A DNA stretch of 28,227 nucleotides from contig CALXGC010000097.1 in assembly GCA_944387755.1 (NCBI GenBank), forward strand, positions 1-28,227, in the 5' to 3' direction. This DNA comes from an uncultured Oscillospiraceae bacterium. Lineage in GTDB: Bacteria; Bacillota_A; Clostridia; Oscillospirales; Oscillospiraceae. The notes beneath the pieces were generated by a model, which was given only the letters and a program-made list of their open reading frames with translations, had not been told where the DNA came from and made no database searches. The position numbers and the translations under genes are program-made. Shown in pieces: positions 6,078-18,512 of the stretch (its first letter is position 1; each line of letters begins with the position of its first letter).

Positions 6078-7169
6078 GTGATTGAGACCTATGACCAGGA
6101 GCGGGTGGACCGCCTGTGCCAGGCGGTGACGGCGGCCCTGTACGACCTGAAGGTCTGGGCGCAGCTCAGCGACGAGGCAGTGGACGAGACCGGCCTGGGG
6201 GACAAGGCGACAAAGCGCAACAAGCGCAACAAGCTGAAGCTGATTCTCCGGGACTGCCTGCGGGCCAGGAGCGTGGGCGTCATCGAGGAGATTCCGGAGA
6301 AGGGCCTGGTGAAGTACGGCAAGCCGGTGGGGGTGATTGCCTCCCTGGTGCCCACCACCAACCCCTGCCTGACCCCGGCGGGCCAGGTGATTTACGCCAT
6401 CAAGGCCCGCGACGTCATCATTTGCAGCCCCCACCCCAGAGCGAAGGCCGTCACCAACCGGTGCATTGACATCATCCGGGACACCCTGATCCGGGAGGGC
6501 GCCCCCGCCGACATCATCCAGGGCATTGAGCAGCCCAGCATCGCCCTCACCCAGGAGCTGATGAAGCGCTGCGACCTGGTCATCGCCACCGGCGGCCGGC
6601 CCATGGTGAAGTCCGCCTACTCCTCCGGCACGCCGGCCTACGGCTCCGGCGCGGGCAACGCCACCGTCATCATCGACGACACCGCCGACACCCCGGAGCG
6701 CCAGGCGGAGGCCGCCCGGAACACCCGCATCTCCAAGACCTCCGACTTCGGCTCCGGCTGCTCCTGCGACGGCAACCTGGTCATCCACGCCTCCGTCTAC
6801 GGCCAGATGGTGGAGGCCCTGAAGGCCGAGGGGGGCTATCTGGCCAGCGAAGAGGAGGCCGAAAAGCTCAAAGACGTCATGTGGGACGAGACGGGACACC
6901 GCCTGCCCGCCACCGTGGCCATCAGTCCCCAGAAGCTGGCCGAGGCCGCCGGCTTTACAATCCCCGCCGGCTGCAAGTTCATCATGGTGACGGGGGGCGG
7001 CATCGGCCAGATCGGAAAAGAGCACTTCTTCTCCTCCGAGAAGCTGACCACCCTGCTGGCCCTGTTCAAGTACGAGGAGACTATCTGCGCCCTCTGTCTG
7101 CTGGCCTTATTATCTCATCTGGCTGATGAAACAACAAGTGGGTTTCATGCGGTTCCCCACCACATCTAA
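6078..7169 (+). pseudogene. CoA-acylating aldehyde dehydrogenase, truncated at both ends
   Basis: The reading frame encodes 363 residues of an acylating aldehyde dehydrogenase (the AdhE N-half / EutE / sulfoacetaldehyde dehydrogenase group), which convert an aldehyde, CoA and NAD to acyl-CoA. Visible are KPVGVIASLVPTTNPCLTP, PHPRAKAVT, VIATGGRPMVKSAYSSGTPA, GAGNATVIIDD and a SGCSCDGN segment that should hold the catalytic cysteine. Homology already starts before the only possible start (GTG at 6078): the upstream in-frame codons read CKAAAVIETYDQ. No ribosome site is present, and the mgtE promoter occupies the upstream DNA. At about 7079, after LLALFKYEE, the family sequence stops and unrelated residues run to the stop; the last 90-100 residues of the family are missing. 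I therefore call it a remnant, although a shortened expressed protein cannot be excluded. Confidence 0.75.
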
Positions 7170-7199: not shown

Positions 7200-8141
7200 A
7201 TGTCCATGGAACTGGTATCCGATGTAATTCTCTGCGAGGTAGGCCCCAGGGACGGCCTTCAGAACGAGAAGAAGCTTTTGACCACGGAGGAGAAGGTGGA
7301 GCTGATTCAGGGCTGTGTGGAGGCGGGGTTTCAGGTGATTGAGGCCGGCTCCTTCGTCCACCCCAGGGCGGTCCCTCAGATGGCGGACACCGGCGAGGTG
7401 TTCCAGCGGCTGGAGAAGCGCCCCGGCGTGGAGTACCGCGCCCTGATTGCCAACCTCAAGGGGGTGGAGCGGGCGGCGGCCTGCGGCTGCAAAAAGGTGA
7501 AGCTGAACGTCTCCGCCAGCAGGGCCCACAATTTGGCCAATCTGAACTGCACGCCGGCGGAGACGGTGGCCGGCTTCCGGCGCTGTGCGGAGGCGGCCCG
7601 CAGCGGCGGCCTTGAGGTCTCCGGCTCCATCTCCATGGTCTTCGGCTCCCCCTGGGAGCGGGAGATTCCGCTGTCCGACGTCAAAGAGATTGTGGAGGCC
7701 TATCTGGCGGTGGGGGTGGAGGAGATCTCCCTCTCCGACGCCTCCGGCCAGGCCTATCCCACCCAGGTGTACCGGATCTGCACCCAGATGGCCGCCGCCT
7801 ATCCCCAGGTGACGTGGTGGCTCCACTTCCACAATACCCGCGGCCTGGGAATGGCCAACATTCTGGCCGGAATGCAGGCGGGCTTCCGCCGCTTTGACAC
7901 CGCCTTCGCCGGGGTGGGGGGCTGTCCCTTCGTCCCCGGCGCGGCGGGCAACGTGGCCACGGAGGACGTGCTCCACCTGTGCGGCGAGATGGGGGTCCGG
8001 ACCGGCATTGACCTGGACCGTGTCCTCCAGGTAAGCCGGCGGCTGGTCTCCATTCTGGGCCACTCCACAGACAGCTATCTGCTCCGGGCCGGAAAGTCCA
8101 GAGCCCTGATTCTGGACCTGCCTGCGGGGCGGAAAAAATAA
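7200..8141 (+). CDS. Hydroxymethylglutaryl-CoA lyase-type enzyme
   Basis: The 313-residue protein is a TIM-barrel member of the DRE-TIM/HMGL family. It carries EVGPRDGLQNE at the N-terminus (catalytic Arg-Asp), SDASGQAYP, the metal-binding HFHNTRG, and AGVGGCPFVPGAAGN, whose cysteine and asparagine match the active-site loop of HMG-CoA lyase. The reaction expected is cleavage of 3-hydroxy-3-methylglutaryl-CoA to acetoacetate and acetyl-CoA, as in leucine breakdown. Some bacterial relatives act on other acyl-CoAs. AGGAG lies seven bases before the ATG at 7200. The gene immediately follows the decayed dehydrogenase and, in another frame, what seems to be the tail of a lost gene, so it may be the last intact member of a former catabolic operon. 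Confidence 0.85.
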   Translation: MSMELVSDVILCEVGPRDGLQNEKKLLTTEEKVELIQGCVEAGFQVIEAGSFVHPRAVPQMADTGEVFQRLEKRPGVEYRALIANLKGVERAAACGCKKVKLNVSASRAHNLANLNCTPAETVAGFRRCAEAARSGGLEVSGSISMVFGSPWEREIPLSDVKEIVEAYLAVGVEEISLSDASGQAYPTQVYRICTQMAAAYPQVTWWLHFHNTRGLGMANILAGMQAGFRRFDTAFAGVGGCPFVPGAAGNVATEDVLHLCGEMGVRTGIDLDRVLQVSRRLVSILGHSTDSYLLRAGKSRALILDLPAGRKK

Positions 8142-8207
8142 CCGGCGGCCGGCGTCTCAGCCGTGCGCCTGTAAAATGAAAGTAGACGCTCACAAAAGTG
8201 TGTATTT

Positions 8208-9128
8208 TTAGAAGGTCCACAGAGACGACTCGTCCTCCTGGGCCTGCTCCAGGTCCTCCGGCTCCTTCGGAGCGGCCCGCTGGAGGCGGCCGGCCTGTCC
8301 GCCGGACCGGCGGGCGGCTCTGGGGAGCGCCAGAGGGATCTCTCTCAGATTCTCCGGAAGCTCCTCCAGCATTTGGGCGTCAATCTGGAATTTTTCCTCC
8401 AGGATTTTCCCCAGCGCGGCCAGCAGGGCGGCCGCGGCGGAGAGGCAACCGAAAACGCCCCCGCTTCCGGCCAGCAGCGGGGTGAATCCGCCGGCCAGGG
8501 CGGCGCCGGCCAGCAGCGCCGTGGTCTGGAAGGCAGCGGACAGGGCGTTTTTTCTGCCGTCCGTCTCCCGCTGGGAGAGCCGGCCGGTCTGGGCCTCCCG
8601 GCGGATGCGGTGCGTCAGGTCCTCGGCGCAGAGGCAGAGGGTGGTCTGGGCCAGAGAGGCGTCTCTGGGGAGGCCGGACAGCTCGCCCCGCTTTCCCATG
8701 GCGTAGAGCGTCATGGCGTTCACGGCCAGAACCAGCTCCCCGGCGGCGTTCACCCGCCGCCGGTTCCGGGCGGCCGCGCCGTCCTCCGGGGGCAGCAGCC
8801 GGTCCGGCGCGGCGGCCTCTCCCGCGGCGGAGAGCTGCGCCAGAATCTGGTTCCGCTGCTCCGGGGGCAGAGGGGCCAGGGCCGCCTCCAGGGCCTCCGG
8901 ACAGCCCTGGGGGTCCCGCAGCGCCCCGTCGTAGCAGTCCTGAAAGCGCGCCATCCAGAGCAGAAGCTCCTGGGCCATCTCCCCGCCCTGCTGCGGGGAT
9001 TTGTCCGCCAGACTGCCGCAGTACAGCGCCTGGAGCAGCTCCTGGGCGCTGAGGTCCTCCTGTAAATAGCTCCAGGCGCGGGCCGAGCGCCGGATGAGGG
9101 CGGCGCGTTCCTGTTGGGTGAGATTCAC
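8208..9128 (-). CDS. Membrane protein with acidic C-terminal tail, last gene of the AAA/Hsp70 cluster
   Basis: I do not recognise this 306-residue protein. Residues 1-195 are mostly helical and soluble-looking. Residues 199-241 are a glycine/alanine-rich hydrophobic hairpin with room for two membrane passes (ALLAGAALAGGFTPLLAG is part of it). The last 60 residues are charged and end in acidic residues plus an aromatic tip, EDESSLWTF. The GTG start at 9128 is chosen because AGGGGGTG lies just before it and the gene then begins 13 bases after the stop of the AAA+ gene; the frame itself is open further upstream. Its position as the seventh gene of one tight block says it is a membrane component of the same machine. 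No function is proposed beyond that. Confidence 0.75.
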   Translation of the reverse strand: MNLTQQERAALIRRSARAWSYLQEDLSAQELLQALYCGSLADKSPQQGGEMAQELLLWMARFQDCYDGALRDPQGCPEALEAALAPLPPEQRNQILAQLSAAGEAAAPDRLLPPEDGAAARNRRRVNAAGELVLAVNAMTLYAMGKRGELSGLPRDASLAQTTLCLCAEDLTHRIRREAQTGRLSQRETDGRKNALSAAFQTTALLAGAALAGGFTPLLAGSGGVFGCLSAAAALLAALGKILEEKFQIDAQMLEELPENLREIPLALPRAARRSGGQAGRLQRAAPKEPEDLEQAQEDESSLWTF

Positions 9129-9141
9129 GGCGCACCCCCTG

Positions 9142-11115
9142 TCACTGGCACAGGCGGCGGAGGGCGTTGGACTCCAGCCGGGAGGCAATCCGCTCAATCC
9201 GCCCCCGGAGGGCGTAAAACAGCGCCCGGTCATAGGGCCGCTGCATGGCGCAGGGCCCGGTATATTTTGCCTCCGCCTCGTTCTGTTCGTGAAAGGCGCA
9301 GGTATAGAACTCCTTCCGGAAGAGAAGCTGGTCCGGGCTGGAGACGGGGGTGAAATTCTCCCGCATCAGCTGCACATAGCAGGCGGCGATTTTGTCCAGG
9401 CTGGCGCTGCTGCTGCCCAGGGTGGTGATGGCGGGGTCCTCGACGGCGGCCTTCAGGGCCTGGAGCCAGGCGGTCAGGCTGATGGGGGCCCGGAGCTGGT
9501 CCTGGGGGATTCGAATCAGGGCGTTGACGGTGATTTTCTGGATGTCCGCCCCGGAGAGGAATTTAATGCCCTCAGGGTGTTCGGGGTCCCTGCCCTCCAT
9601 CAGCAGGTCCATAATTTTTTGCAGGGCGTTGTCGGTGAAGCAGCCCATCACCTCGTCGTCCTGGAACAGGGGGTGCAGCTCGCCGGCCATGCCCTGTTCG
9701 CTGGCCGTCTGCCTGCGCAGGCGCTCCGCCCGGCGCATCTGTTCCCGGAAGATCTCCCTGCACTCGTCGTTGGTGGGCATATAGACGGAGAAGAGGGCGT
9801 CGAAGCGGCCGCTGCGGAAGAACTCCGCCGGGAGCTGGCTGATGTCGTTGGCGGTGGCGAAGATGAAGCAGGGCTTTGTATTTTCCTGCATCCAGGTCAG
9901 CAGGCGGCCGAACATCCGCTTAAAGGTCCCGCCGTCGCCGCTGCCGGACGCCGCGCCGCTGAAGCCCTTCTCCAGCTCGTCAATCCAGAGGATGCAGGGG
10001 GACATGGCCTCCGCCTGGGCCAGGGCCTGGCGGAGATTCCGCTCCGAGTCGCCCACCAGTCCCCCCATGAGCTGGTCCATATCCATCCGCACCATGGGGA
10101 CGCCCCACCGGCGGTACAGAATCTTGGCGGCCTCCGATTTGCCGCAGCCGGGCACGCCGCACAGCAGCACGCCCTTGGGCGCGGGCACGCCCCGGTTCAG
10201 GGCGTACTCGTGGCGGCTGTTTTTGCCCATGCGTTTGCCGGTCTCGTCCGCCCAGCGCTTATAGGCGGCCATGCCCCCCAGGCTGTCCTGGGCGGCGCGG
10301 GCCTGCCGCTCCCTCTTTTCGCGGTAGAGCTGTAAAAGGCCGCCGGAGCTGCCGATGGCCTGGGCCTTGGCGTCCAGCAGCAGCTCCTCCCGGACGTCCC
10401 GGAAGAGCAGGGGCTCTTCGTCCCCGCTGTCCACCCACAGCAGCCGCTCCACGCAGCGCTCCGCCTGAATCAGGCTGAAGCCCGTCATCTGCAGGGCGAT
10501 CTCGCGGGCGTAGTCCGGGTCCTCGAAGGGGTGGCCGTTTTCCTCGGCCAGGCTGCGGACGATCTCCATGATCTCCCAGGTCTGAGGGTATCCGGCGGCG
10601 AACACCTCGGTATAGGGCTTCAGGTCCCTGGGGAGCAGGGCGGGGTCGCCGTAGAGGAGCACGCAGCTGTTCCGCAGGGCGGAGGAGACGTTCCGGCAGG
10701 CGGCGTAGCTGCGGGCATACCGGCGGAGGGCGGAGATCATGCCGGCCTCCCCCCGGCCTCTCCCGCTCCAGGAGGCCTGGGTGAGGTGCAGCAGGACCAG
10801 GCAGGGGGGCTTCTGATAGGACATCAGCCCGCCCTCCGCGCTCAGCTCCTCCAGGGCCTCCGGCTCCTCGAAGAAGTTTCCGCAGGCCTCCAGGCCGTCG
10901 GGCCGCATCCCCACATAGGCGTAGTAGTGGGCGTCGTGGCCGTCCCAGCCGCCGTCCTCCGGCCTGAGCAGGTCCACAAATTTTCCCTCCAGGGCCAGCC
11001 GGCGCATCAGGACAATCTCCTCGGTGTCCACCATAATCAGCGGCGTTTTGGCCTGATAGGCCTGGCGGCATTGTGCAATCAGCCTGTCCAGCACCTTTGT
11101 GCGGCTGCTGTCCAT
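9142..11115 (-). CDS. AAA+ ATPase, Ycf46-like
   Basis: The 657-residue protein has one complete AAA+ module in its middle: Walker A GVPGCGKS (320-327), Walker B CILWIDELEK (374-383), sensor 1 ATAND (420-424) and an arginine-finger motif SGRFD (435-439). The N-terminal 270 residues resemble the Ycf46 family, in which a domain opening with a phrase like LIMVDTEE (26-33) precedes the LGG-linker and the AAA+ module. The remaining 200 residues after the module are family-atypical. Such ATPases form hexamers and remodel protein partners using ATP. AGGAGG precedes the ATG at 11115, which I prefer to an upstream ATG at 11202 inside the previous gene. It lies between the unknown 375-residue protein (19-base gap) and the terminal membrane protein (13-base gap). 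Confidence 0.88.
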   Translation of the reverse strand: MDSSRTKVLDRLIAQCRQAYQAKTPLIMVDTEEIVLMRRLALEGKFVDLLRPEDGGWDGHDAHYYAYVGMRPDGLEACGNFFEEPEALEELSAEGGLMSYQKPPCLVLLHLTQASWSGRGRGEAGMISALRRYARSYAACRNVSSALRNSCVLLYGDPALLPRDLKPYTEVFAAGYPQTWEIMEIVRSLAEENGHPFEDPDYAREIALQMTGFSLIQAERCVERLLWVDSGDEEPLLFRDVREELLLDAKAQAIGSSGGLLQLYREKRERQARAAQDSLGGMAAYKRWADETGKRMGKNSRHEYALNRGVPAPKGVLLCGVPGCGKSEAAKILYRRWGVPMVRMDMDQLMGGLVGDSERNLRQALAQAEAMSPCILWIDELEKGFSGAASGSGDGGTFKRMFGRLLTWMQENTKPCFIFATANDISQLPAEFFRSGRFDALFSVYMPTNDECREIFREQMRRAERLRRQTASEQGMAGELHPLFQDDEVMGCFTDNALQKIMDLLMEGRDPEHPEGIKFLSGADIQKITVNALIRIPQDQLRAPISLTAWLQALKAAVEDPAITTLGSSSASLDKIAACYVQLMRENFTPVSSPDQLLFRKEFYTCAFHEQNEAEAKYTGPCAMQRPYDRALFYALRGRIERIASRLESNALRRLCQ

Positions 11116-11134
11116 AAAATAGCCTCCTTCTCGC

Positions 11135-12262
11135 TCAGCGCCGGAACGCCTCCAGGGCGGCGACGCGGTGTTTGCTGACGGGATAGAAATTGGAGTGCAC
11201 ATACCCCCGCTGGTCCAGCAGCAGGCACTCCGCCTGGCGGAATTCCACCTGGACGATGGGCTCCTCCGGCAGGGACGCGCCGTAGGTCAGCCGGTGGGAG
11301 TACGCCGCGCAGTCGAGTCCATACTCGCTGAGCAGAATCCACCCCTCGTCCTCGTACTCCGGGGCGAACCCGATGATTTTCAGGCCGGAGCAGTCGAAGG
11401 CGCGGGCGCCGTCCCGGCCGGAGACCACCAGACAGCCGCCGGTGCGCTCCATCCGGCAGGCCGGCGTCTGGGCCGCCACGGGGTGGAGCCACACCGGGAC
11501 GCCGCCCACAAAGTTGAGGTACCGGTAGTCCCCCGGCGCAATCCGCGCCTCCCTGGGAGCGGCGTCCTGGGGGCCGTCGTACAGAAGAAGGGTGACGGGG
11601 ACGTTCCGGCTGCCCTGGCGGTGGGGCGCGGCCAGGATTCTTCTGGGGGTAATGACCGCCCCCGCCTCCAGAAGCTGCGCCGCCCCCTGGTTCATCAGAA
11701 TGCGGTAGGGCCGCTGCCGGGCCGGAAGCACAATGTCGCCGCCGCCGTCCAGAACCAGCCAGCCCTCGCCGGCGGCGGTTGGGGCGTCTTGGCGGAGATA
11801 GGCGCGTTTGGCCTCCTCCGGCGTCAGGGGGCAGGCCTTCAGGTCCTTGCCGGCCAGGCCGTAGCCCGCGGCCAGCAGGCAGAACAGCCGCTGCCAGTCC
11901 GCCTCCGGCAGGCCGGAGGCGCGGGAGAGCGCCCAGAGCTCCTCCAGCCGCTGCCGCTGGACGGGGCTGGAGAAGTGCTCCCGCAGGCGGGCCCTCTGCC
12001 AGTACTCCGGGAGGCTGCACAGGGCCCAGTCGTCCCCGGCGTACTCCATGGGGGAGGCGTAGCCATACGCCTTCTCCGGGTAGAAGGCGGCGAAATAGAA
12101 CATCTCCGTGTGGTACATGGCCACGGGGGACAGAAAGCGGCACTGCTGCTGAAAGAAGCCGGCGGCCAGCTCCCGGCTGCCCAGCAGGTCCTGGGGGCGG
12201 AAGCAGTCCCGGTACCGCATGGGGCCGGTGACAGCCCGTCCCCCCATCATAAACTGTTTCAT
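11135..12262 (-). CDS. Unknown protein with beta-rich C-terminal half
   Basis: The 375-residue protein is not recognised. Its first 150 residues are rich in aromatic residues and helices (for example AMYHTEMFYFAAFYPEKAYG). The second half alternates short strands and turns, with a pattern such as GWILLSEYG and VQVEFRQAECLLLDQRGYVHSN-like blades that loosely recall RCC1/propeller repeats; this is a weak impression only. No signal peptide, membrane segment or catalytic motif is obvious. AAGGAAGGGTGAC precedes the ATG at 12262. It starts 51 bases after the Hsp70-like gene and ends 19 bases before the AAA+ ATPase, so it may be an adaptor or substrate-recognition part linking the two ATPases. Confidence 0.75.
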   Translation of the reverse strand: MKQFMMGGRAVTGPMRYRDCFRPQDLLGSRELAAGFFQQQCRFLSPVAMYHTEMFYFAAFYPEKAYGYASPMEYAGDDWALCSLPEYWQRARLREHFSSPVQRQRLEELWALSRASGLPEADWQRLFCLLAAGYGLAGKDLKACPLTPEEAKRAYLRQDAPTAAGEGWLVLDGGGDIVLPARQRPYRILMNQGAAQLLEAGAVITPRRILAAPHRQGSRNVPVTLLLYDGPQDAAPREARIAPGDYRYLNFVGGVPVWLHPVAAQTPACRMERTGGCLVVSGRDGARAFDCSGLKIIGFAPEYEDEGWILLSEYGLDCAAYSHRLTYGASLPEEPIVQVEFRQAECLLLDQRGYVHSNFYPVSKHRVAALEAFRR

Positions 12263-12313
12263 GTCACCCTTCCTTTCCGGTTCCGGCTCCGGTCCGGTCT
12301 CTGAAGGCCCCAC

Positions 12314-14398
12314 TCAGGAGGGCTTGCTGTCATAGACCAGGAACAAAACCTTGCCCAGGGCAATCTCGGCCTGGTCCTGGAGGCCGGAGACAAACTCCGG
12401 CTGGAGAATCTCCACCTTCCCCACGGCCTGTTCCGTCTTGGCGGCGGCTTTTTTCTCAATTTCGCTGCGGGAGGCGGCCGCCGTGAGCCTGCGGGCAATC
12501 TTGCCCAGGAATTTGGCGCTGAGCTTTGTGTTGTTCTTCCGGACGAAGGCCGTCACTTTTTCCTGAAAGCCATCGCTGTCCAGCGTCACGGCCAGGGCCA
12601 GGAGGGCCGCGGCGGCCAGGGGCTGGAGGGCGATCAGGCCAAAGGCGAAGGCGTACAGGACGGAGCTGAGGGTGGAGAACAAAATGCCGGGGACGATGGC
12701 GGTGATCCACGTCTGGTTGATGAGGCTGGCCAGATTCAGATTCTGGAGGATGGCCTCCTTCTGGGCGGCGGTCAGCTGGGAGAGCCTTGGGGCCGCCGTC
12801 AGGCTGACGCCGTAAATGCCGTCGGAGATTTTGTTGACTTCCTCGTGAATTTTGCCCACGGCGTCGGAGAAATGCCGGCTGAACAGCTCCTGGATGGCCT
12901 GCTGGCCGGCCTCGCCCACCAGACGCCCGTCCTCTCTGGTCCGCTGGTTGACGCTGTCGGTAAACTGTCCTACGGTGAGGGGCCCGACGGCGCTGGCGGA
13001 GGCGGCGCAGTCCCGCATGTCGTCGCACACCACCTGGACGATATGGGCGGAGAGCTCCCGGACGAAGGCCTGATACTGGTCCGCGCTCAGCTTCTCCGCA
13101 AAAGCCCGGTACTCCTCCACATAGTCCCTGCCCCGAATTTCCAGGCTCTTGCCGTAGCACAGGCCCTTGGCCACGGAGGAGGACGGGTCCCGGCTCTGGA
13201 GGACCTGGACGCCGTAGATCTGCTGGACCATATCCCGCATCCCGGAGACAAAGCTGGTCCCGCCGGTGAGGATGATGCCGCCGCAGGGGCCGGCGAGGGC
13301 CTTGGTATACTGTACGAACTCCCGGCAGAGCTCCAGCCAGGACTGCTTTGGGGAGAAGTGTCCGTTGAGCTGAATACTCTTCCGGTTCAGCGCCCGGCCC
13401 ATAAAGGCGGCGTTCATGGTGAACTGGAGCTGAAGGCCGCTGGGGGACTCCGGATTCACACGGCCTTCGCTGTCCACGCCCCAGATGGGGATGACCTGCA
13501 CGCCCAGGGAGTCCTGGCTGGGGTAGAAGGCCTCCTTCATCTCCCGGAGCTGGACCAGGAGCATCTGCCGCTGTTCCTGGGGGATCTGCGCCCTGGTCAG
13601 CCCGCTGTCCTCCAGGGCTGTTTCCAGCATCTGCTCGTCCAGGTCGTAGCCGCCCAGCCGCAGGCTGCGGGTGATCAGCCGCTTTCCCATCTGTACATAG
13701 GTAAAATCCAGGGTGGAGGAGCCGGCGTCCAGCACCGCGACGCCCTCCTCCATGGGGAGGGCCTTGGACTGGGTCTCCTCCGCGCTGAGGACGGCGGCCA
13801 TGATGGCCGCGGTGGACTCTGGCAGCACCGACACATGGGGGCACTGGGTAGCCCGCCGCAGCAGCGCCTGATAGCGCTCCATGGCCGGGAGGCTGGCCCA
13901 GGTCTCGGAGGCGGGGCAGCCGGCGGTGAGCAGGACCCGGCCCCGGGCCGCCGCCTCCGCCAGCTTGGGCTGATAGTGCAGAATCTGCCTCCAAAGGGCG
14001 CCGATGAAGGCCTCCAGCAGATGCTGGTGGGTGTGTTCCGCGTCGATTTTTGTCTCCCACTTGGCGGGCTCCACCTTGAAGTGCTGGAAGAATCCGGGGG
14101 CGTTCCTGGCCTTCCTGCCGATGACAGCCCCGCCGCTGGTAAATCGAATCAGGGTGGGCAGCTTGGCGTCGTCCTCATAGTTCATGCGCAGCCGCTCCAC
14201 AGCGGCTCCGCCGTTTTCCCCCGCCGCCTGGAGGCGGCGGAACAGGTAGGCCACGGTCTCCCCGTGGCCCACGTCAATGCCCACCACATAGTCGTATTGG
14301 GCGCACAGCATCCGGTCATAGACCAGGGACCGCTGAAAGGGGCTGCCCATGAACCAGCAGGCGGGACGGGCGGCTTCTGCTGTTGTTGACTGTACCAT
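12314..14398 (-). CDS. Hsp70/actin-fold ATPase with C-terminal membrane anchor
   Basis: The 694-residue protein has the three nucleotide-binding motifs of the Hsp70/actin superfamily in the right order: phosphate-1 VVGIDVGHGETVAY (38-51), phosphate-2 VAVLDAGSSTLDF (220-232) and adenosine GGIILTGGTSFVSGM (373-387). After residue 420 it does not look like a DnaK substrate-binding domain. A helical region runs to about 560, followed by a strongly hydrophobic stretch (about 565-606, two probable membrane passes) and a basic, lysine-rich helical tail. So the ATPase head should be cytoplasmic and tethered to the membrane. It has no DnaJ or GrpE gene beside it. AAGGAGATG precedes the ATG at 14398; an extra 35-residue N-terminal extension lies before the ATPase core. 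Hsp70-family membership is firm; the role is unknown. Confidence 0.88.
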   Translation of the reverse strand: MVQSTTAEAARPACWFMGSPFQRSLVYDRMLCAQYDYVVGIDVGHGETVAYLFRRLQAAGENGGAAVERLRMNYEDDAKLPTLIRFTSGGAVIGRKARNAPGFFQHFKVEPAKWETKIDAEHTHQHLLEAFIGALWRQILHYQPKLAEAAARGRVLLTAGCPASETWASLPAMERYQALLRRATQCPHVSVLPESTAAIMAAVLSAEETQSKALPMEEGVAVLDAGSSTLDFTYVQMGKRLITRSLRLGGYDLDEQMLETALEDSGLTRAQIPQEQRQMLLVQLREMKEAFYPSQDSLGVQVIPIWGVDSEGRVNPESPSGLQLQFTMNAAFMGRALNRKSIQLNGHFSPKQSWLELCREFVQYTKALAGPCGGIILTGGTSFVSGMRDMVQQIYGVQVLQSRDPSSSVAKGLCYGKSLEIRGRDYVEEYRAFAEKLSADQYQAFVRELSAHIVQVVCDDMRDCAASASAVGPLTVGQFTDSVNQRTREDGRLVGEAGQQAIQELFSRHFSDAVGKIHEEVNKISDGIYGVSLTAAPRLSQLTAAQKEAILQNLNLASLINQTWITAIVPGILFSTLSSVLYAFAFGLIALQPLAAAALLALAVTLDSDGFQEKVTAFVRKNNTKLSAKFLGKIARRLTAAASRSEIEKKAAAKTEQAVGKVEILQPEFVSGLQDQAEIALGKVLFLVYDSKPS

Positions 14399-14422
14399 CT
14401 TTGCATCTCCTTACCGCTGTTT

Positions 14423-14983
14423 TTATGGCTGCTCCGCCGGCGGGCGGTATACGTCCAGAAGCTGTCCGCACAGCGCCTCCGCGTAGGAGCGGACGGCCCG
14501 GCGGTAATCCTCCGCCGTCCAGCCGGCCTCCTGGTCCAGCCGCCCGGCGCGGGCCAGCGCCGCCATAGCCCGCATGGCCTCCAGAAGCTGTGCGTTGTCC
14601 AGCTCCAAAGGCTCGCAGCCCAACCGGGCGGAGAGGTCCTTCAGCGCCTCCTCCAGCTTGTCCAGCTGCCGCAGCATGGGGCGGATGTTGGTGTTGTACG
14701 CCCCCGCCCGCATCAGGGGGAGGCTGTCCTCCCGGTCCAGGGCGGACGCGGCGTACTGCCGCAGGGCGCAGCCGAAGAAGCGGAAGCCGCCGTCCTGGTA
14801 GTAGGCCCTGTGGATCTCCCGGTCCATCAGCTCCGTCAGCCGCCGCCGGCTCTCCGGGGCCTCTCCGGGCCCCGGAGGAGGCGGGCCGCCGCGGCAACGC
14901 TGTGCCAGGAGGGCCAGCTCCCGCTCCAGCTCCTGGAGCTCGCCGGCCTTTTTCCGGACCCAGATTTGAATTCTTTCCCTCAT
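14423..14983 (-). CDS. Small helical protein of the AAA/Hsp70 cluster
   Basis: The 186-residue protein is not recognised. It begins with a charged helix (RKKAGELQELERELALLAQR) likely to form a coiled coil, then a short proline-glycine linker (PPPPGPG), and a second helical part from about residue 45 to the end. No membrane segment, metal motif or enzyme motif is seen. TGAGGCGG lies before the ATG at 14983. It sits 24 bases upstream of the Hsp70-like gene, with the membrane protein gene 24 bases further upstream, which suggests a co-factor or scaffold for the Hsp70-like ATPase, comparable in position, though not in sequence, to a nucleotide-exchange or J-type partner. Confidence 0.75.
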   Translation of the reverse strand: MRERIQIWVRKKAGELQELERELALLAQRCRGGPPPPGPGEAPESRRRLTELMDREIHRAYYQDGGFRFFGCALRQYAASALDREDSLPLMRAGAYNTNIRPMLRQLDKLEEALKDLSARLGCEPLELDNAQLLEAMRAMAALARAGRLDQEAGWTAEDYRRAVRSYAEALCGQLLDVYRPPAEQP

Positions 14984-15007
14984 AAAAGCCGCCTCACAGT
15001 ACCGGCC

Positions 15008-16201
15008 TCAAAAGAACGCGGGGGCGGTCTCCGCCGCTTCCTCTTCTTCCTCCCGGAGGTCCGGCGCTCCGGCCGGCGCGGGCCGGGCCGCCTCCGCGGC
15101 GGCGGTCTCCGCCCTGTCCCGCCGGGTCAGGATGGAGAGCTGGCCCACCAGGGCCGCCGTCTTGTCGGAGAGGACCGCCATCGCCGCGCCGCCGGCGACG
15201 GCCGCCGCGCCGATGACCTGGTGGACCAGGGCCTCGTGCCGGATGTTGGCGACCCAGCCGGCAACCATGTCGGCGTCCGCTATGGCGTACTGGATGCCGG
15301 GTGCGCCGGAGGCGGTGGTTGCCGTGGCGAACTCCGAGAACACGGCGGGAATCTCCAGCACGGCGTTGGCGTTGACCGCCTCCGCCATCGCCGCCGCCGT
15401 CTGCGCCGCCGCCATCGCCGCCCCGGTGTTAAAGACGAAGATTCCCACGCCGATGATCACCGCCGCAATGGCGGCGGCCAGCAGGATCTTTCGGGCCATA
15501 TCCCTGGAGAGGAAGCCCCTGGAGACGGCGTCCGCCGCCGCCTGGGCCTGTACGCCGGCGCAGGCGAGGTTGGCGGCCTCGTGGATGGTCATGGAACCGC
15601 CGCTGTTCAGGTAGAGCTCCATGGCGGCGATGCACTTGTAATTTGTGCCGTTTTCCCCCAGGGCCGCCGCCGAAGCGAGGTAGTCGCCGGAGGCCGCAAG
15701 CTTTCTGGCCAGGGCCTGCATGGCCTCCGGGGGCAGATAGAAGTTCTGAACGGCCTGCCGGACGGCCTTCTCCAGGTCCTTCGGGGAGGCGGGATGACGG
15801 CTGCGGAGCTGCCGGGAGTAGTAGCGCCAGAAGAGCTCGTCCGTGGAGACGCCCCGCTCCAAATCCTGCCGCAGGCCGGGGTCCTGGTGGGCGGTCAGGC
15901 CGAAGTACAGCTTGTGGAGGGCCAGCGTCCGCTGCTCGCCGCCCAGGTCCTGAAGGCTCTCCAGAAGCTGATTGAGCACCGCCATAGCGTCCGCGCTGAC
16001 CGCGTCCCGGATTCCCTCGCAGCTGGCCGCGGCGGCAATGCACTGCTGGGCCGTCTCCCCGGCCTGGTCGGGGTCAACGCCCCTGCTGGTCTGCATCTGG
16101 ATCAGCGTCTCCGTCAGGCTGCCCGTCTCCGCCGCCTGAAGCATCCGGGTGTAGATCTGACGGGAGAAGGTCTTGGTGAAAAAATTCTCCTGCTGTTTCA
16201 T
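15008..16201 (-). CDS. Membrane protein with acidic C-terminal tail, second gene of the cluster
   Basis: I do not recognise this 397-residue protein. Residues 1-235 are helical with a cluster of Tyr/Phe/Trp (DELFWRYYSR, 121-130). A first membrane helix lies at about 239-259 (AAAIAAVIIGVGIFVF), a second at about 326-345, and the alanine-rich loop between them would be outside if the ends are cytoplasmic. The tail after 360 is charged and ends DLREEEEEAAETAPAFF, that is, acidic then aromatic, like the seventh gene of the cluster. AAAGGAG precedes the ATG at 16201. A 117-base gap separates it from the first gene and contains a possible internal -10 box. Confidence 0.75.
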   Translation of the reverse strand: MKQQENFFTKTFSRQIYTRMLQAAETGSLTETLIQMQTSRGVDPDQAGETAQQCIAAAASCEGIRDAVSADAMAVLNQLLESLQDLGGEQRTLALHKLYFGLTAHQDPGLRQDLERGVSTDELFWRYYSRQLRSRHPASPKDLEKAVRQAVQNFYLPPEAMQALARKLAASGDYLASAAALGENGTNYKCIAAMELYLNSGGSMTIHEAANLACAGVQAQAAADAVSRGFLSRDMARKILLAAAIAAVIIGVGIFVFNTGAAMAAAQTAAAMAEAVNANAVLEIPAVFSEFATATTASGAPGIQYAIADADMVAGWVANIRHEALVHQVIGAAAVAGGAAMAVLSDKTAALVGQLSILTRRDRAETAAAEAARPAPAGAPDLREEEEEAAETAPAFF

Positions 16202-16262
16202 AAGCTTGCCGCTCCTTTTCTTTGTTTTTGGCTTCAGGGGTTCCGCCCTGAGCTTTGACTAC

Positions 16263-16268
16263 AGTATA
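16263..16268 (-). promoter_or_regulatory. Possible internal -10 box before the second cluster gene
   Basis: TATACT on the minus strand lies in the only sizeable gap of the cluster (16202-16318). The -35 at 17-base spacing is poor (TATCTT), so activity is doubtful. Confidence 0.3.
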
Positions 16269-16318
16269 GCGGCGGGGCGCCGGGAAAGATACCGCCCGGC
16301 GGGAAAAAGAATGCGCGT

Positions 16319-17203
16319 TTAAAGGGGGTAGAGGTTGACATAGCAGGGCTGTCCGTCCCGGCCGGCGGAGAAGTGGTCCAGGATTTTCTGCATCTCCATG
16401 GGCCGGCAAAAGCCGCAGCGGATGCCGGCGAGGACCACCAGGTCCCGGCGCACGGCAAAGGCGCTGCCGGCGGTCTCCATGAACGTTCTGGCGGCGGACT
16501 CCTTCAGGCTGTATCCGATGACCAGCTTCAGCAGGGTCTCCTGGCTGGTTCTTCTGGCCTGGCTCTCTCCGCGGACGGGGTAGAAGGCCTCCCAGGCGTC
16601 TGTGCTGATCCAGGCGTAAATCAAAAAGCTGGAGACGTTCATCCCTGTGGCCGCCTGAAGCCGGTGGACCTCCGCCCGCAGGACCTCGCCGACCGGGAAG
16701 ACCTGGCGGATGACCCGGCGCTCGAACTCCGGCAGCTCCTCAGGTGTCAGGGCAAGGCCGCGGCGGATTTTTTCCAGGGTGGCCTCGCCGGTGTAGTTCC
16801 GGCAGTTCAGAAAGTTCAGCCACGCTTTGGCCGGAATGCCCGCCTCCTTCCGGAAGCGGATTTGTTCCCTGGACGCAAGGGCCTCCTCCAGAAAGTCCAG
16901 ACCGCTTTTCCGGTCCGCCCTGGAGAGCATCCGAAATTCCAGAAACATCCGGCCGGACAGGCCCAGGGCGGTCTGGTTTTCCTGCACAATCTGAAACAGC
17001 CGCGTGTCCGCCGCCGGAACGGCGGACAGGAATTCCTCCCGCGCGGCGGCGTCGAGGCCGAGCTCCTCCAGCCGCGCCAACCCGCGGCGCAGCAGCTTTC
17101 CGGCAACATAGTCCGGCAGGGCCCTCCGCAGCTTCTGAATTTCAGGGTCGTACAGCAGCTGGTTGAGATGCTCCTCCAGACGGACAAAATCAAATTCAGC
17201 CAT
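16319..17203 (-). CDS. First gene of the AAA/Hsp70 cluster, two degenerate HTH-like units
   Basis: The 294-residue protein opens the seven-gene block. Residues 1-100 are helical and unassigned. About 103-170 and 190-294 each resemble the small HTH-like module often seen at the ends of Firmicute proteins, whose usual pattern is roughly 'KRAxIxRxxFSKIR...PSKxTxLALAIxLxLxxxExxxLLxxAGYAxSxxxxxDLIIxYFI'. In unit one RKEAGIPAKAWLNFLNCRNY and LEKIRRGLALTPEELPEFE fit; in unit two RRTSQETLLKLVIGYSLKES and the following METAGSAFAVRRDLVVLAGI fit well. A CGFC pair lies at 263-266. It could be a regulator of the operon or a recognition subunit of the machine. The ATG at 17203 has only a weak, very close AGGAAG, so translation may be low. 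Confidence 0.75.
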   Translation of the reverse strand: MAEFDFVRLEEHLNQLLYDPEIQKLRRALPDYVAGKLLRRGLARLEELGLDAAAREEFLSAVPAADTRLFQIVQENQTALGLSGRMFLEFRMLSRADRKSGLDFLEEALASREQIRFRKEAGIPAKAWLNFLNCRNYTGEATLEKIRRGLALTPEELPEFERRVIRQVFPVGEVLRAEVHRLQAATGMNVSSFLIYAWISTDAWEAFYPVRGESQARRTSQETLLKLVIGYSLKESAARTFMETAGSAFAVRRDLVVLAGIRCGFCRPMEMQKILDHFSAGRDGQPCYVNLYPL

Positions 17204-17291: not shown

Positions 17292-17297
17292 ATTATA
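17292..17297 (-). promoter_or_regulatory. -10 box upstream of the seven-gene cluster
   Basis: A perfect TATAAT reads on the minus strand about 90 bases before the first gene. No good -35 is seen at 16-18 bases, which suggests activator dependence or a weak promoter. Confidence 0.45.
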
Positions 17298-17369
17298 TCA
17301 AAAAGACAGCGGAATGGCCACATGCAAAAAGGAAAATGCGGCTTTTTTGTTCGGACAGGCAAATGGAAA

Positions 17370-17398: not shown

Positions 17399-17421
17399 GG
17401 AGGCGTGATAGTTTGGACGGG

Positions 17422-17732
17422 GCTCCCCCAGCCGCCTGCGGCGGCAGCCCCCTCAAAGAGGGGACCGGCCTCCCTCTCTGAGGGAGGTGGCGCGGAGCGC
17501 CGGAGGGAGCCGTTTCCCCGGCCTCCCTCTCTGAGGGAGCTCCCCCAGGCGCCTGCGGCGCCAGCCTCCTCCAAGTGCCGGCCAGCCTCCCTCTCTGAGG
17601 GAGGTGGCGCGAAGCGCCGGAGGGAGCCGTTTCCCCAGCTTCCCTCTCTGAGGGAGGTGGCGCGGAGCGCCGGAGGGAGCTGTTTCCCCGGCCTCCCTCT
17701 CTGAGGGAGGCGGCGCGAAGCGCCGGAGGGAG
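17422..17732. repeat. Cluster of REP-like palindromic repeats
   Basis: Four nearly identical 42-base units lie at 17468-17509, 17585-17626, 17638-17679 and 17691-17732. A half unit at 17521-17539 is joined to a second repeat type (17539-17574), which also occurs at 17422-17463. Each 42-base unit contains CCTCCCTCTCTGAGGGAGG, then GGCGCGGAGCGCC or GGCGCGAAGCGCC, then GGAGGGAG. The first and second parts are each hairpins, and the final GAGGGAG can also pair with CTCCCTC to close a cloverleaf. Units are separated by short, related spacers (CGTTTCCCC). The array ends 20 bases before the DUF559 start. All units point the same way. Confidence 0.85.
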
Positions 17733-17752: not shown

Positions 17753-18151
17753 ATGTCCCTGCCATACCGCCATCAGTTAATTCCCCGGGCGAAAGAACTG
17801 CGAAAAAATGCGACCCGGCAGGAAAACCATCTGTGGTACGATTTTCTTCGTACATATCCGGTTCGTTTCCAGCGGCAGAAGGCAATTCAGCAATTTATTG
17901 TCGATTTTTACTGTCATAAAGCGGGACTGGTGATTGAGCTGGACGGTTCCCAGCACGACGGGGCGCAGGGGCAGGCCTATGACAGGGAGCGGGACGCCGT
18001 GCTGTCCGGTCTGGGGCTGAAAATTCTGCGGTTTTCCAACGCCCGGATTGACCGGGAGTTTGCGGCTGTCTGCGCCGGCATTGACCGGGCCGTACAGGAG
18101 TCCCGCTGCCTGGAGCAGGAAAAGAATGGGTATCCCAAACAAAAATTTTGA
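17753..18151 (+). CDS. DUF559 family, Vsr-like endonuclease domain protein
   Basis: This 132-residue protein is a single DUF559 domain, a compact PD-(D/E)xK nuclease fold related to the very-short-patch-repair enzyme Vsr. Signatures are the N-terminal ARELRKNATRQE-type helix (here AKELRKNATRQENHLW, 13-28), RFQRQKAIQQFIVDFYC with the first acidic residue D51, VIELDGSQH with E62, D64 and H68, and the C-terminal GLKILRFSNARI (88-99). These residues suit metal-dependent DNA cleavage, but activity is unproven for the family. AAAGGAGG precedes the ATG at 17753, giving a strong ribosome site. The gene sits directly behind the REP-like array, which is a recurrent arrangement, as I recall it, in gut Firmicutes. 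Confidence 0.9.
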   Translation: MSLPYRHQLIPRAKELRKNATRQENHLWYDFLRTYPVRFQRQKAIQQFIVDFYCHKAGLVIELDGSQHDGAQGQAYDRERDAVLSGLGLKILRFSNARIDREFAAVCAGIDRAVQESRCLEQEKNGYPKQKF

Positions 18152-18183: not shown

Positions 18184-18212
18184 TTGACATCTGGTTTCTC
18201 TGGTGATAAACT
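18184..18212 (+). promoter_or_regulatory. Promoter of the asnB T-box transcript
   Basis: A consensus TTGACA is followed after 17 bases by TAAACT. Transcription would begin just before the T-box structure. Confidence 0.7.
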
Positions 18213-18233
18213 CTTGCACATAAATTTGAAAAA

Positions 18234-18512
18234 ACTTCAAAGGCGTTGATGGAGAAAAGTACCGCGGAAGTTCCGGGACAGTGAGCGGGGGAGAGTGAGA
18301 ACCCCGTACCAAAGAGTCCGCGGGAAGAACACTCCGAAGCCGCGACCTGAACGCAGGAAACTGTCAGTAGGTGAGACGGGTTGTGACCGTTACATCACAG
18401 GGGCTTGTTAGAGCCTTTCAAAGGGGCCCCCTCCGGGGGCAAATCAGGTGGCACCGCGGATCGCAGCTATTCGTCCTGGAAATCAGGACGAGTAGCTGCG
18501 ATTTTCATTTTG
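18234..18512 (+). promoter_or_regulatory. T-box leader, asparagine specific
   Basis: The leader has all T-box parts in order: GATGGAGAAAAGTA at the start of stem I, the AGTGAGC element and GAGTGAGAAC loop, the specifier region GAAGAACACTCC, and the T-box sequence GGTGGCACCGCGG at 18447-18459. The specifier reads AAC (18328-18330), an asparagine codon. The variable base of the TGGN bulge is C, which pairs with the G discriminator of tRNA-Asn. Uncharged tRNA-Asn binding should favour the antiterminator and let transcription continue into asnB, which encodes the enzyme that makes asparagine. Confidence 0.95.
18460..18512 (+). terminator. T-box terminator hairpin
   Basis: A long stem (TCGCAGCTATTCGTCCTG paired with its complement at 18484-18501, one G-T pair) is followed by TTTTCATTTT. 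It overlaps the T-box sequence, so it and the antiterminator exclude each other. Confidence 0.9.

Follow-up and report, generated by a model that had tools for sequence, protein, structure and literature searches.

The window analyzed here, the whole stretch of 28,227 nucleotides of contig CALXGC010000097.1 from an uncultured Oscillospiraceae bacterium (assembly GCA_944387755.1), contains a cluster of seven minus-strand genes (g1 to g7, positions 8208-17203) for which Pfam, NCBIfam, PADLOC and PHROGs offer no named system. That these seven genes form one system is well supported by the conservation of their set and order in other genomes. We infer, with confidence that is about evenly poised, that the cluster is an accessory operon encoding an ATP-driven machine, bound to the membrane, that remodels a specific client protein. 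The open reading frames (ORFs) and the signals next to them are the following.

16319..17203, minus strand: g1, 294 amino acids, soluble and helical, with helix-turn-helix-like units (read by eye); possible regulator or adaptor
15008..16201, minus strand: g2, membrane protein of 397 amino acids with an acidic C-terminal tail, last residues FF
14423..14983, minus strand: g3, 186 amino acids, coiled-coil/helical, directly upstream of the Hsp70-like g4
12314..14398, minus strand: g4, Hsp70-like ATPase of 694 amino acids, with an Hsp70 nucleotide-binding domain and an all-helical C-terminal half, hydrophobic at 563-607
11135..12262, minus strand: g5, 375 amino acids, about 160 N-terminal residues helical, the rest beta-rich and weakly beta-propeller/RCC1-like
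9142..11115, minus strand: g6, AAA+ ATPase of 657 amino acids, Walker A GVPGCGKS, second region of homology FRSGRFD
8208..9128, minus strand: g7, membrane protein of 306 amino acids read from a GTG start, distantly related to g2, with WTF as the last residues of its acidic tail
17292..17320, minus strand: promoter-like site 5' of g1, TGGCCA-17-TATAAT with TG, consensus match only
8141..8163, minus strand: terminator-like stems 3' of g7, consensus match only

Layout and conservation of the cluster

All seven minus-strand ORFs reported in the first-pass annotation of this DNA are confirmed, and the plus-strand genes around them are unrelated, as that annotation had stated. The starts were picked from ribosome sites and relatives (12262 for g5, 11115 for g6 and the GTG at 9128 for g7). 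Five intergenic gaps fall within the 13-51 bases originally described (g2-g3 and g3-g4, 24 bases each; g4-g5, 51; g5-g6, 19; g6-g7, 13), the departure being the 117 bases between g1 and g2, and the seven genes are probably a single transcription unit. Between positions 7900 and 18500, there are 6 promoter-like sites compared with 0.8 expected from shuffles, and 13 terminator-like sites compared with 7.6 expected, so that the terminator call downstream of g7 is weak on its own. Five of the proteins (g1, g2, g3, g5 and g7) pass no curated family cut-off in Pfam or NCBIfam, and g1 has no match in either library at E ≤ 1; the earlier statement that the cluster matches no described system holds for these two libraries as well as for PADLOC and PHROGs.

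A profile of g4 retrieved 58 loci in species genomes, L001-L010 from Bacillota and L011-L058 from Bacteroidales. Loci of the window type come from 13 genomes (L001, L002 with L158, L003-L007, L008 with L159, L100, L101, L102 with L160, L109 and L157, the pairs being two contigs of the same genome). Across these 13 other genomes, the order g1-g7 is kept with small variations, mostly on partial contigs, the majority of which end inside the cluster. The variations include a swap of g1 and g2 in L006 and L007, a duplication of g2 in L002 and, weakly, in L008, and the lack of g2 between g1 and g4 in L004. Where the DNA reaches far enough, the order g4-g5-g6 is found in 9 of the 9 tabulated loci, and g7 follows g6 in 9 of 9, with L160, outside the table, in agreement. 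The eight genomes of the family that carry g5 all have g4 sequence as well (8/8), adjoining in seven and with both genes at contig ends in G002; in G505 and G517, g4 is present only as a contig-end fragment (4e-4 and 8e-12, respectively).

This conservation of the set and order in relatives implies more than a chance neighborhood, and the recurrence of the order amid varied flanks bears out the original proposal of one system. The inter-locus distances agree for g5-g6 (rho 0.89), g5-g7 (0.86) and g6-g7 (0.88), each level of agreement being reached in 0 of 2000 permutations, and for g4-g6 (0.61, 1/2000). An EcsC-family gene (PF12787) lies 3' of g7 in L100 (9455-10276) and L157 (88-969) and, by eye, in L109, L158 and L159; it is not in the window, and EcsC matches were obtained for 3 of the 62 flanking ORFs.

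The two ATPases and the beta-rich protein

The g6 protein matches PF00004 (4.3e-25, 89.1 bits compared with a cut-off of 21.2), with the motifs GVPGCGKS (Walker A) and FRSGRFD (arginine-finger region) detected by pattern search and WIDELEKG read in the sequence. Among PDB sequences, it matches AFG2 and CDC48/p97 (best 2e-36), in PHROGs, phrog_8638, a family without assigned function (1.7e-71), and in PADLOC, the IetA and TRIP13 ATPases. The ATPase domain is similar to those of the CDC48/p97 clade and FtsH, but g6 has a single AAA+ domain, an N-terminal region of its own and no peptidase in the chain, and it falls far under all equivalog and subfamily cut-offs (the best in NCBIfam is 57.5 compared with 500 bits). 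Of the initial description as a Ycf46-like AAA+ ATPase, the AAA+ part stands; the Ycf46 label is given by none of the libraries used.

The g4 protein passes the Pfam MreB cut-off weakly (32.0 compared with 27 bits) and is below the curated HSP70 cut-off (13.0 compared with 20.6 bits). In its predicted structure, a nucleotide-binding domain of the actin/Hsp70 fold with the catalytic motifs, specifically of the Hsp70 kind, is followed by an all-helical half, in accord with the fold first proposed. From residue 376 (in the numbering of the truncated query, here and below), the model consists of helices only, with a predicted local distance difference test score (pLDDT) of 57-94 by block, and the beta-sandwich substrate-binding domain with a helical lid is not present in it. 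Residues D10, E162, D192 and D199, presumably the catalytic positions, are invariant in 30 of 30 alignment rows. The listed structural alignments are all to Hsp70-type proteins, with 14-21% identity, and the Foldseek listing also includes MreB chains. The g4 protein shares the nucleotide-binding fold and the motif positions with Hsp70/DnaK but differs in this low structural identity, in the helical C-terminal half that takes the place of the beta substrate-binding domain, and in the hydrophobic segment 563-607. The latter agrees with the initial view of g4 as a membrane-anchored protein as far as the window is concerned but not in general: among 10 window-type relatives, the second half of g4 is clearly hydrophobic over a segment in just 3.

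For g5, the fold searches yielded weak propeller-type matches only, with the N-terminal half barely covered. In genome G008 (L159, 855-3836, reversed orientation), g5 and g6 are a single ORF of 993 residues, of which residues 1-338 correspond to g5 and 359-991 to g6. Given this fusion, g5 is probably a dedicated adaptor of the AAA+ ATPase g6.

Membrane proteins and putative helpers

The description of g2 and g7 as two membrane proteins with acidic tails is upheld: g2 has a hydrophobic segment at 234-266 and g7 a weaker one at 216-235 (mean 1.81), and both proteins close with an acidic tail ending in Phe. Among the window-type relatives, the hydrophobic segment is found in 8 of 8 g2 and 5 of 9 g7 proteins. 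Profile-profile comparison with hhalign relates g2 to g7 (84.5%, 7e-6) and, more strongly, to the Bacteroidales protein b0 (96.4%, 1.4e-9). The last residue is Phe or Tyr in 10 of the 12 complete g2 proteins of the loci read, and none of the 136 complete ORFs of other families (four loci counted twice) has such an end.

Profile relatives of g1 are present in 11 of the 13 window-type genomes (in L008 as a weak match of 2e-21, in L100 truncated where the contig ends) and also in L009 and L010; in L001 and L157, the contig begins downstream of the g1 position.

Accessory status and genomic context

In the family of G002, g5 is present in 8 of 350 genomes (E ≤ 1e-5) and a g4-like gene in 26 of 350 (E ≤ 1e-10); in the genus of G002, there are 2 genomes with a g4-like gene among 86, one of the window type and the other G1021. 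The corresponding counts are 1 of 394 in the order of G001 and 14 of 247 in the family of G007. Because the cluster is rare and patchy in the genus and the family, it is accessory and not resident, contrary to the first-pass annotation, which had considered it a resident system. Synteny with six relatives starts only at 18,184-18,282 (about 18.2 kb), next to the asparagine-synthase-like gene (asnB), where L182 is cut by the contig end. On the left flank, the HMG-CoA-lyase-like protein has a match at E ≤ 1e-60 in 3 of 12 genomes, with 41-42% identity, and in the absence of a close orthologue on this side, no clean empty insertion site is demonstrable among the six syntenic relatives. No match to g4 was found in plasmid and phage records; in viral contigs, there was no pattern match for g6, and none of the 22 pattern matches of the g4 profile is a relative.

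The plus-strand genes around the cluster encode aldehyde-dehydrogenase-like and HMG-CoA-lyase-like proteins (both by eye), a DUF559 protein (Pfam) and the asparagine-synthase-like protein (by eye). The last has a match at E ≤ 1e-100 in 62 of the 86 genomes in the genus of G002, with identity of up to 87%, so that the host is probably a relative of the gut bacterium represented by G002; in the genus of G001, 0 of 14 genomes gave a match. Its gene is preceded by a T-box leader at 18237-18481 (Rfam RF00230, 98.2 bits), close to where the synteny with relatives starts. By eye, the aldehyde-dehydrogenase-like ORF (6078-7169) seems to be truncated, and part of its C-terminal region is unusual. Between the cluster and asnB, beside the DUF559 endonuclease-like gene (17753-18151), there are five listed repeat copies of 45-53 bases (17416-17732) with the palindromic core CCTCCCTCTCTGAGGGAGG, one copy being just 67% alike; this core was not found in the 186 loci compared. 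The repeats and the DUF559 gene are perhaps a repetitive extragenic palindromic (REP)-like element with a partner nuclease.

Related Hsp70 modules in Bacillota and Bacteroidales

Outside the window type, Hsp70-like genes related to g4 occur in several other arrangements. In 26 of the 29 other Bacillota loci that were read together with their flanks (range L103-L119 and L143-L155), the Hsp70-like gene lies behind a gene for a membrane coiled-coil partner, an arrangement denoted type D; L105, L112 and L117 have no partner match. All 26 type D Hsp70-like proteins tested have a hydrophobic segment, and the loci, where read, have ordinary genes as neighbors (by eye). In Bacteroidales, too, the Hsp70-like gene comes after this partner (hhalign 98.2 and 96.0%), and the partners of the two Bacteroidales forms, A and B, are related to each other (98.5%). 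A resemblance to GrpE of the partners in type D and in both Bacteroidales forms was seen by eye only, and a profile search against PDB sequences listed no GrpE. The g3 protein was considered as a counterpart of these partners and rejected (hhalign 0.2-1.2%). Genome G005 has a second Hsp70-like and AAA+ pair with other neighbors (L156, 9591-14030).

Form A, assigned to 39 loci by a rule on size and distance, has the order partner, Hsp70-like protein, an ATPase of about 920 residues and a gene in the fourth slot. The ATPase is HerA-like where tested (L021, PF01935, 3.2e-8). The slot-4 ORFs contain the motif HE[GSTA][REK]H in 28 of 36 cases. The others include an LHH nuclease in L017 (14439-15245; PF14411, 4e-27) and a non-specific endonuclease in L049 (14999-15823; PF13930, 6.4e-24); the rest were read by eye as MORN-like (L032, L051 and L054), short (L012 and L034) or, in L050 (14223-15386), resembling a truncated peptidase that has an HNH-like portion. 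The N-terminal region of about 83 residues in the L017 protein is common to the peptidase versions (5e-16 to L030). Such a leader with a swapped enzyme would fit the pattern of effector systems, in a few loci and outside the window type. In L021 (14578-16293), too, a nuclease or other domain may occupy the peptidase slot, a reading that, like the one for L050, is by eye or weak.

In form B (L027, L046, L048, L055 and L056), the genes encode an AAA+ ATPase, a protein in the g5 position, the partner and the Hsp70-like protein. L046, L048 and L056 also have a g2-like protein (96.4%), and L027, L046, L048 and L055 a zinc-peptidase-like one, so that counterparts of g2 and g6 are again met in the company of the Hsp70 module and of a zinc-peptidase-like gene. 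The form B peptidase-like proteins have a hydrophobic segment in 4 of 4 cases tested and are related to those of form A (98.7%). A Bacillota locus, L010, joins the types, with g1, a g5-like gene (81.7%), g3, g6, g4, a peptidase-like gene (2e-23), a gene for a small protein and a g7-like gene.

Several observations weigh against a single machine of the composition proposed here. The agreement of distances is not significant for g2-g4 (0.16, 374/2000), g3-g4 (206/2000), g2-g7 (197/2000), g2-g3 (153/2000) and g3-g5 (419/2000), and part of the agreement elsewhere is explicable by shared ancestry alone. The profile of g3 did not detect it in L004, L005, L101 and L109. Only 8 of the 25 g2 proteins in the database set (the window protein counted in) end in Phe, most of the others having a hydrophobic last residue and a tail that is not strongly acidic, so that an acidic tail with a Phe end is not general to g2 but a subgroup feature; in g7, the Phe end is found in only 3 of 10 complete proteins of relatives. 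The g5-g6 fusion is known from one metagenome assembly, and the form B counterpart of g5 is weak (hhalign 60.4%, 28 columns). Finally, type D is a form of the Hsp70 module that exists as a two-gene unit with no adjoining AAA+ gene.

Known systems and competing explanations

A search of the open-access literature (subscription papers being outside its scope) yielded no report of this gene combination. Among the closest published parallels are the chaperone-type NTP-dependent conflict systems (eLife 2020, PMC7159879), which combine chaperone and AAA+ or GTPase modules with variable effectors, have either MoxR plus vWA or a GTPase as their basis and in some cases include HSP70 and GrpE. The combination of chaperone and AAA+ modules is shared with the cluster, but none of the seven proteins matched a vWA or GTPase family (Pfam, E ≤ 1), and the best AAA match is PF00004. 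The CoCoNuTs, described (eLife 2024, PMC11090510) as multi-gene systems based on the McrB GTPase and McrC, with an Hsp70 unit of nucleotide-binding and substrate-binding domains and, in some cases, additional ATPases, likewise include an Hsp70-like protein in a multi-gene system but differ from the cluster in that no McrC family was found in the window proteins (Pfam) and the AAA_5 match of g6 reaches 14.9 compared with 22 bits. With the IetAS anti-phage system, the similarity lies in the AAA+ domain of g6, which is matched by IetA profiles (1.7e-18); g6 scores 57.4 bits compared with the IetA equivalog cut-off of 510, and none of the seven proteins matched a protease family in Pfam, NCBIfam or PADLOC.

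Of the competing explanations, effector handling is the most interesting one, although we consider it doubtful. According to this explanation, the cluster is a conflict system whose ATPases act on an effector by retaining, loading, exporting or activating it, the effector slot being occupied by a peptidase or nuclease in the relatives and by an unrecognized protein in the window type. The predominance of the peptidase motif in slot 4, with nucleases in L017 and L049, the shared leader with a swapped enzyme in L017 and the sporadic distribution all speak for it. Conversely, the window type has no recognized effector domain and no recognized gene for a toxin or for immunity, and the swapping rests on few loci because, of the eight motif-less slot ORFs, only those of L017 and L049 were family-tested and six were read by eye only. 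Furthermore, PADLOC provided nothing specific: the window proteins gave weak, chance-like matches to Cas8a (g4) and REase_II (g1), the proteins of 10 relatives gave ATPase-domain matches only (HerA, mad8, IetA and weaker ones), and the 62 flanking ORFs gave, at E ≤ 1e-10, a single match to mad3 and matches to two viperin models, each with one member. A role in defense, one of the possibilities listed originally, accordingly remains unsupported.

A rather improbable alternative is protein quality control in the envelope, by an AAA+/Hsp70 stress machine to which damaged membrane proteins would be subject for clearance or folding, in the manner of a split FtsH. The presence of the zinc-peptidase-like protein next to AAA+ and Hsp70 genes in form B and L010, with the hydrophobic segment in all tested form B cases, and the EcsC-family gene following g7 are compatible with such a role. 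The cluster is, however, rare in the genus and family, unlike core proteostasis genes, and the seven window proteins contain no HExxH motif, in contrast to the FtsH-type zinc protease, a peptidase-like gene being found only in relatives. Far less likely still is an actin-like filament system in place of an Hsp70 machine, a possibility raised by the MreB and HSP70 cut-offs that g4 passes and fails, respectively, and by the MreB chains in the Foldseek listing. A chance neighborhood of unrelated genes, which a single window viewed alone and the wide g1-g2 gap might suggest, can be effectively dismissed, being refuted by a set and order found again in many loci whose flanks differ.

A proposed protein-handling machine

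In the remodeling machine that we favor, g6 would form an unfoldase ring, with g5 as an adaptor dedicated to it, and g2 and g7 would anchor the complex at the membrane and present acidic tails with a hydrophobic end to the ATPase or to the client. The g4 protein would act as an Hsp70-type switch that lacks the usual peptide-binding beta domain and in which the helical half gates binding and release; g1 and g3 could be a regulator or adaptor. Such a machine would strip, activate or hand over one particular client protein, with export, activation and destruction of the client each a conceivable outcome. Because a peptidase-like or nuclease partner lies beside the same Hsp70 module in related operons, the ancestral job most likely was to drive this partner or its substrate. 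With no recognizable enzyme of this kind in the window, the client is probably encoded elsewhere, or else the machine only remodels.

Hsp70 and AAA+ machines usually come together only in general protein folding. More tentatively, the cluster might belong to an undescribed superfamily of membrane machines centered on Hsp70 in gut Bacillota and Bacteroidales. In such machines, an Hsp70 switch would be combined with exchangeable motors, either HerA-type or AAA+ together with a beta adaptor, and with exchangeable effectors (zinc peptidase or nucleases), so as to deploy or control the effectors at the membrane, the window representing a branch without a recognized peptidase. If the remodeling machine is real, a reduced Hsp70 together with an AAA+ unfoldase and dedicated membrane proteins would constitute a new build of a targeted protein-handling machine, and a role would be assigned to a set of proteins that is described by no family library used here and whose relatives swap both the motor and the effector.
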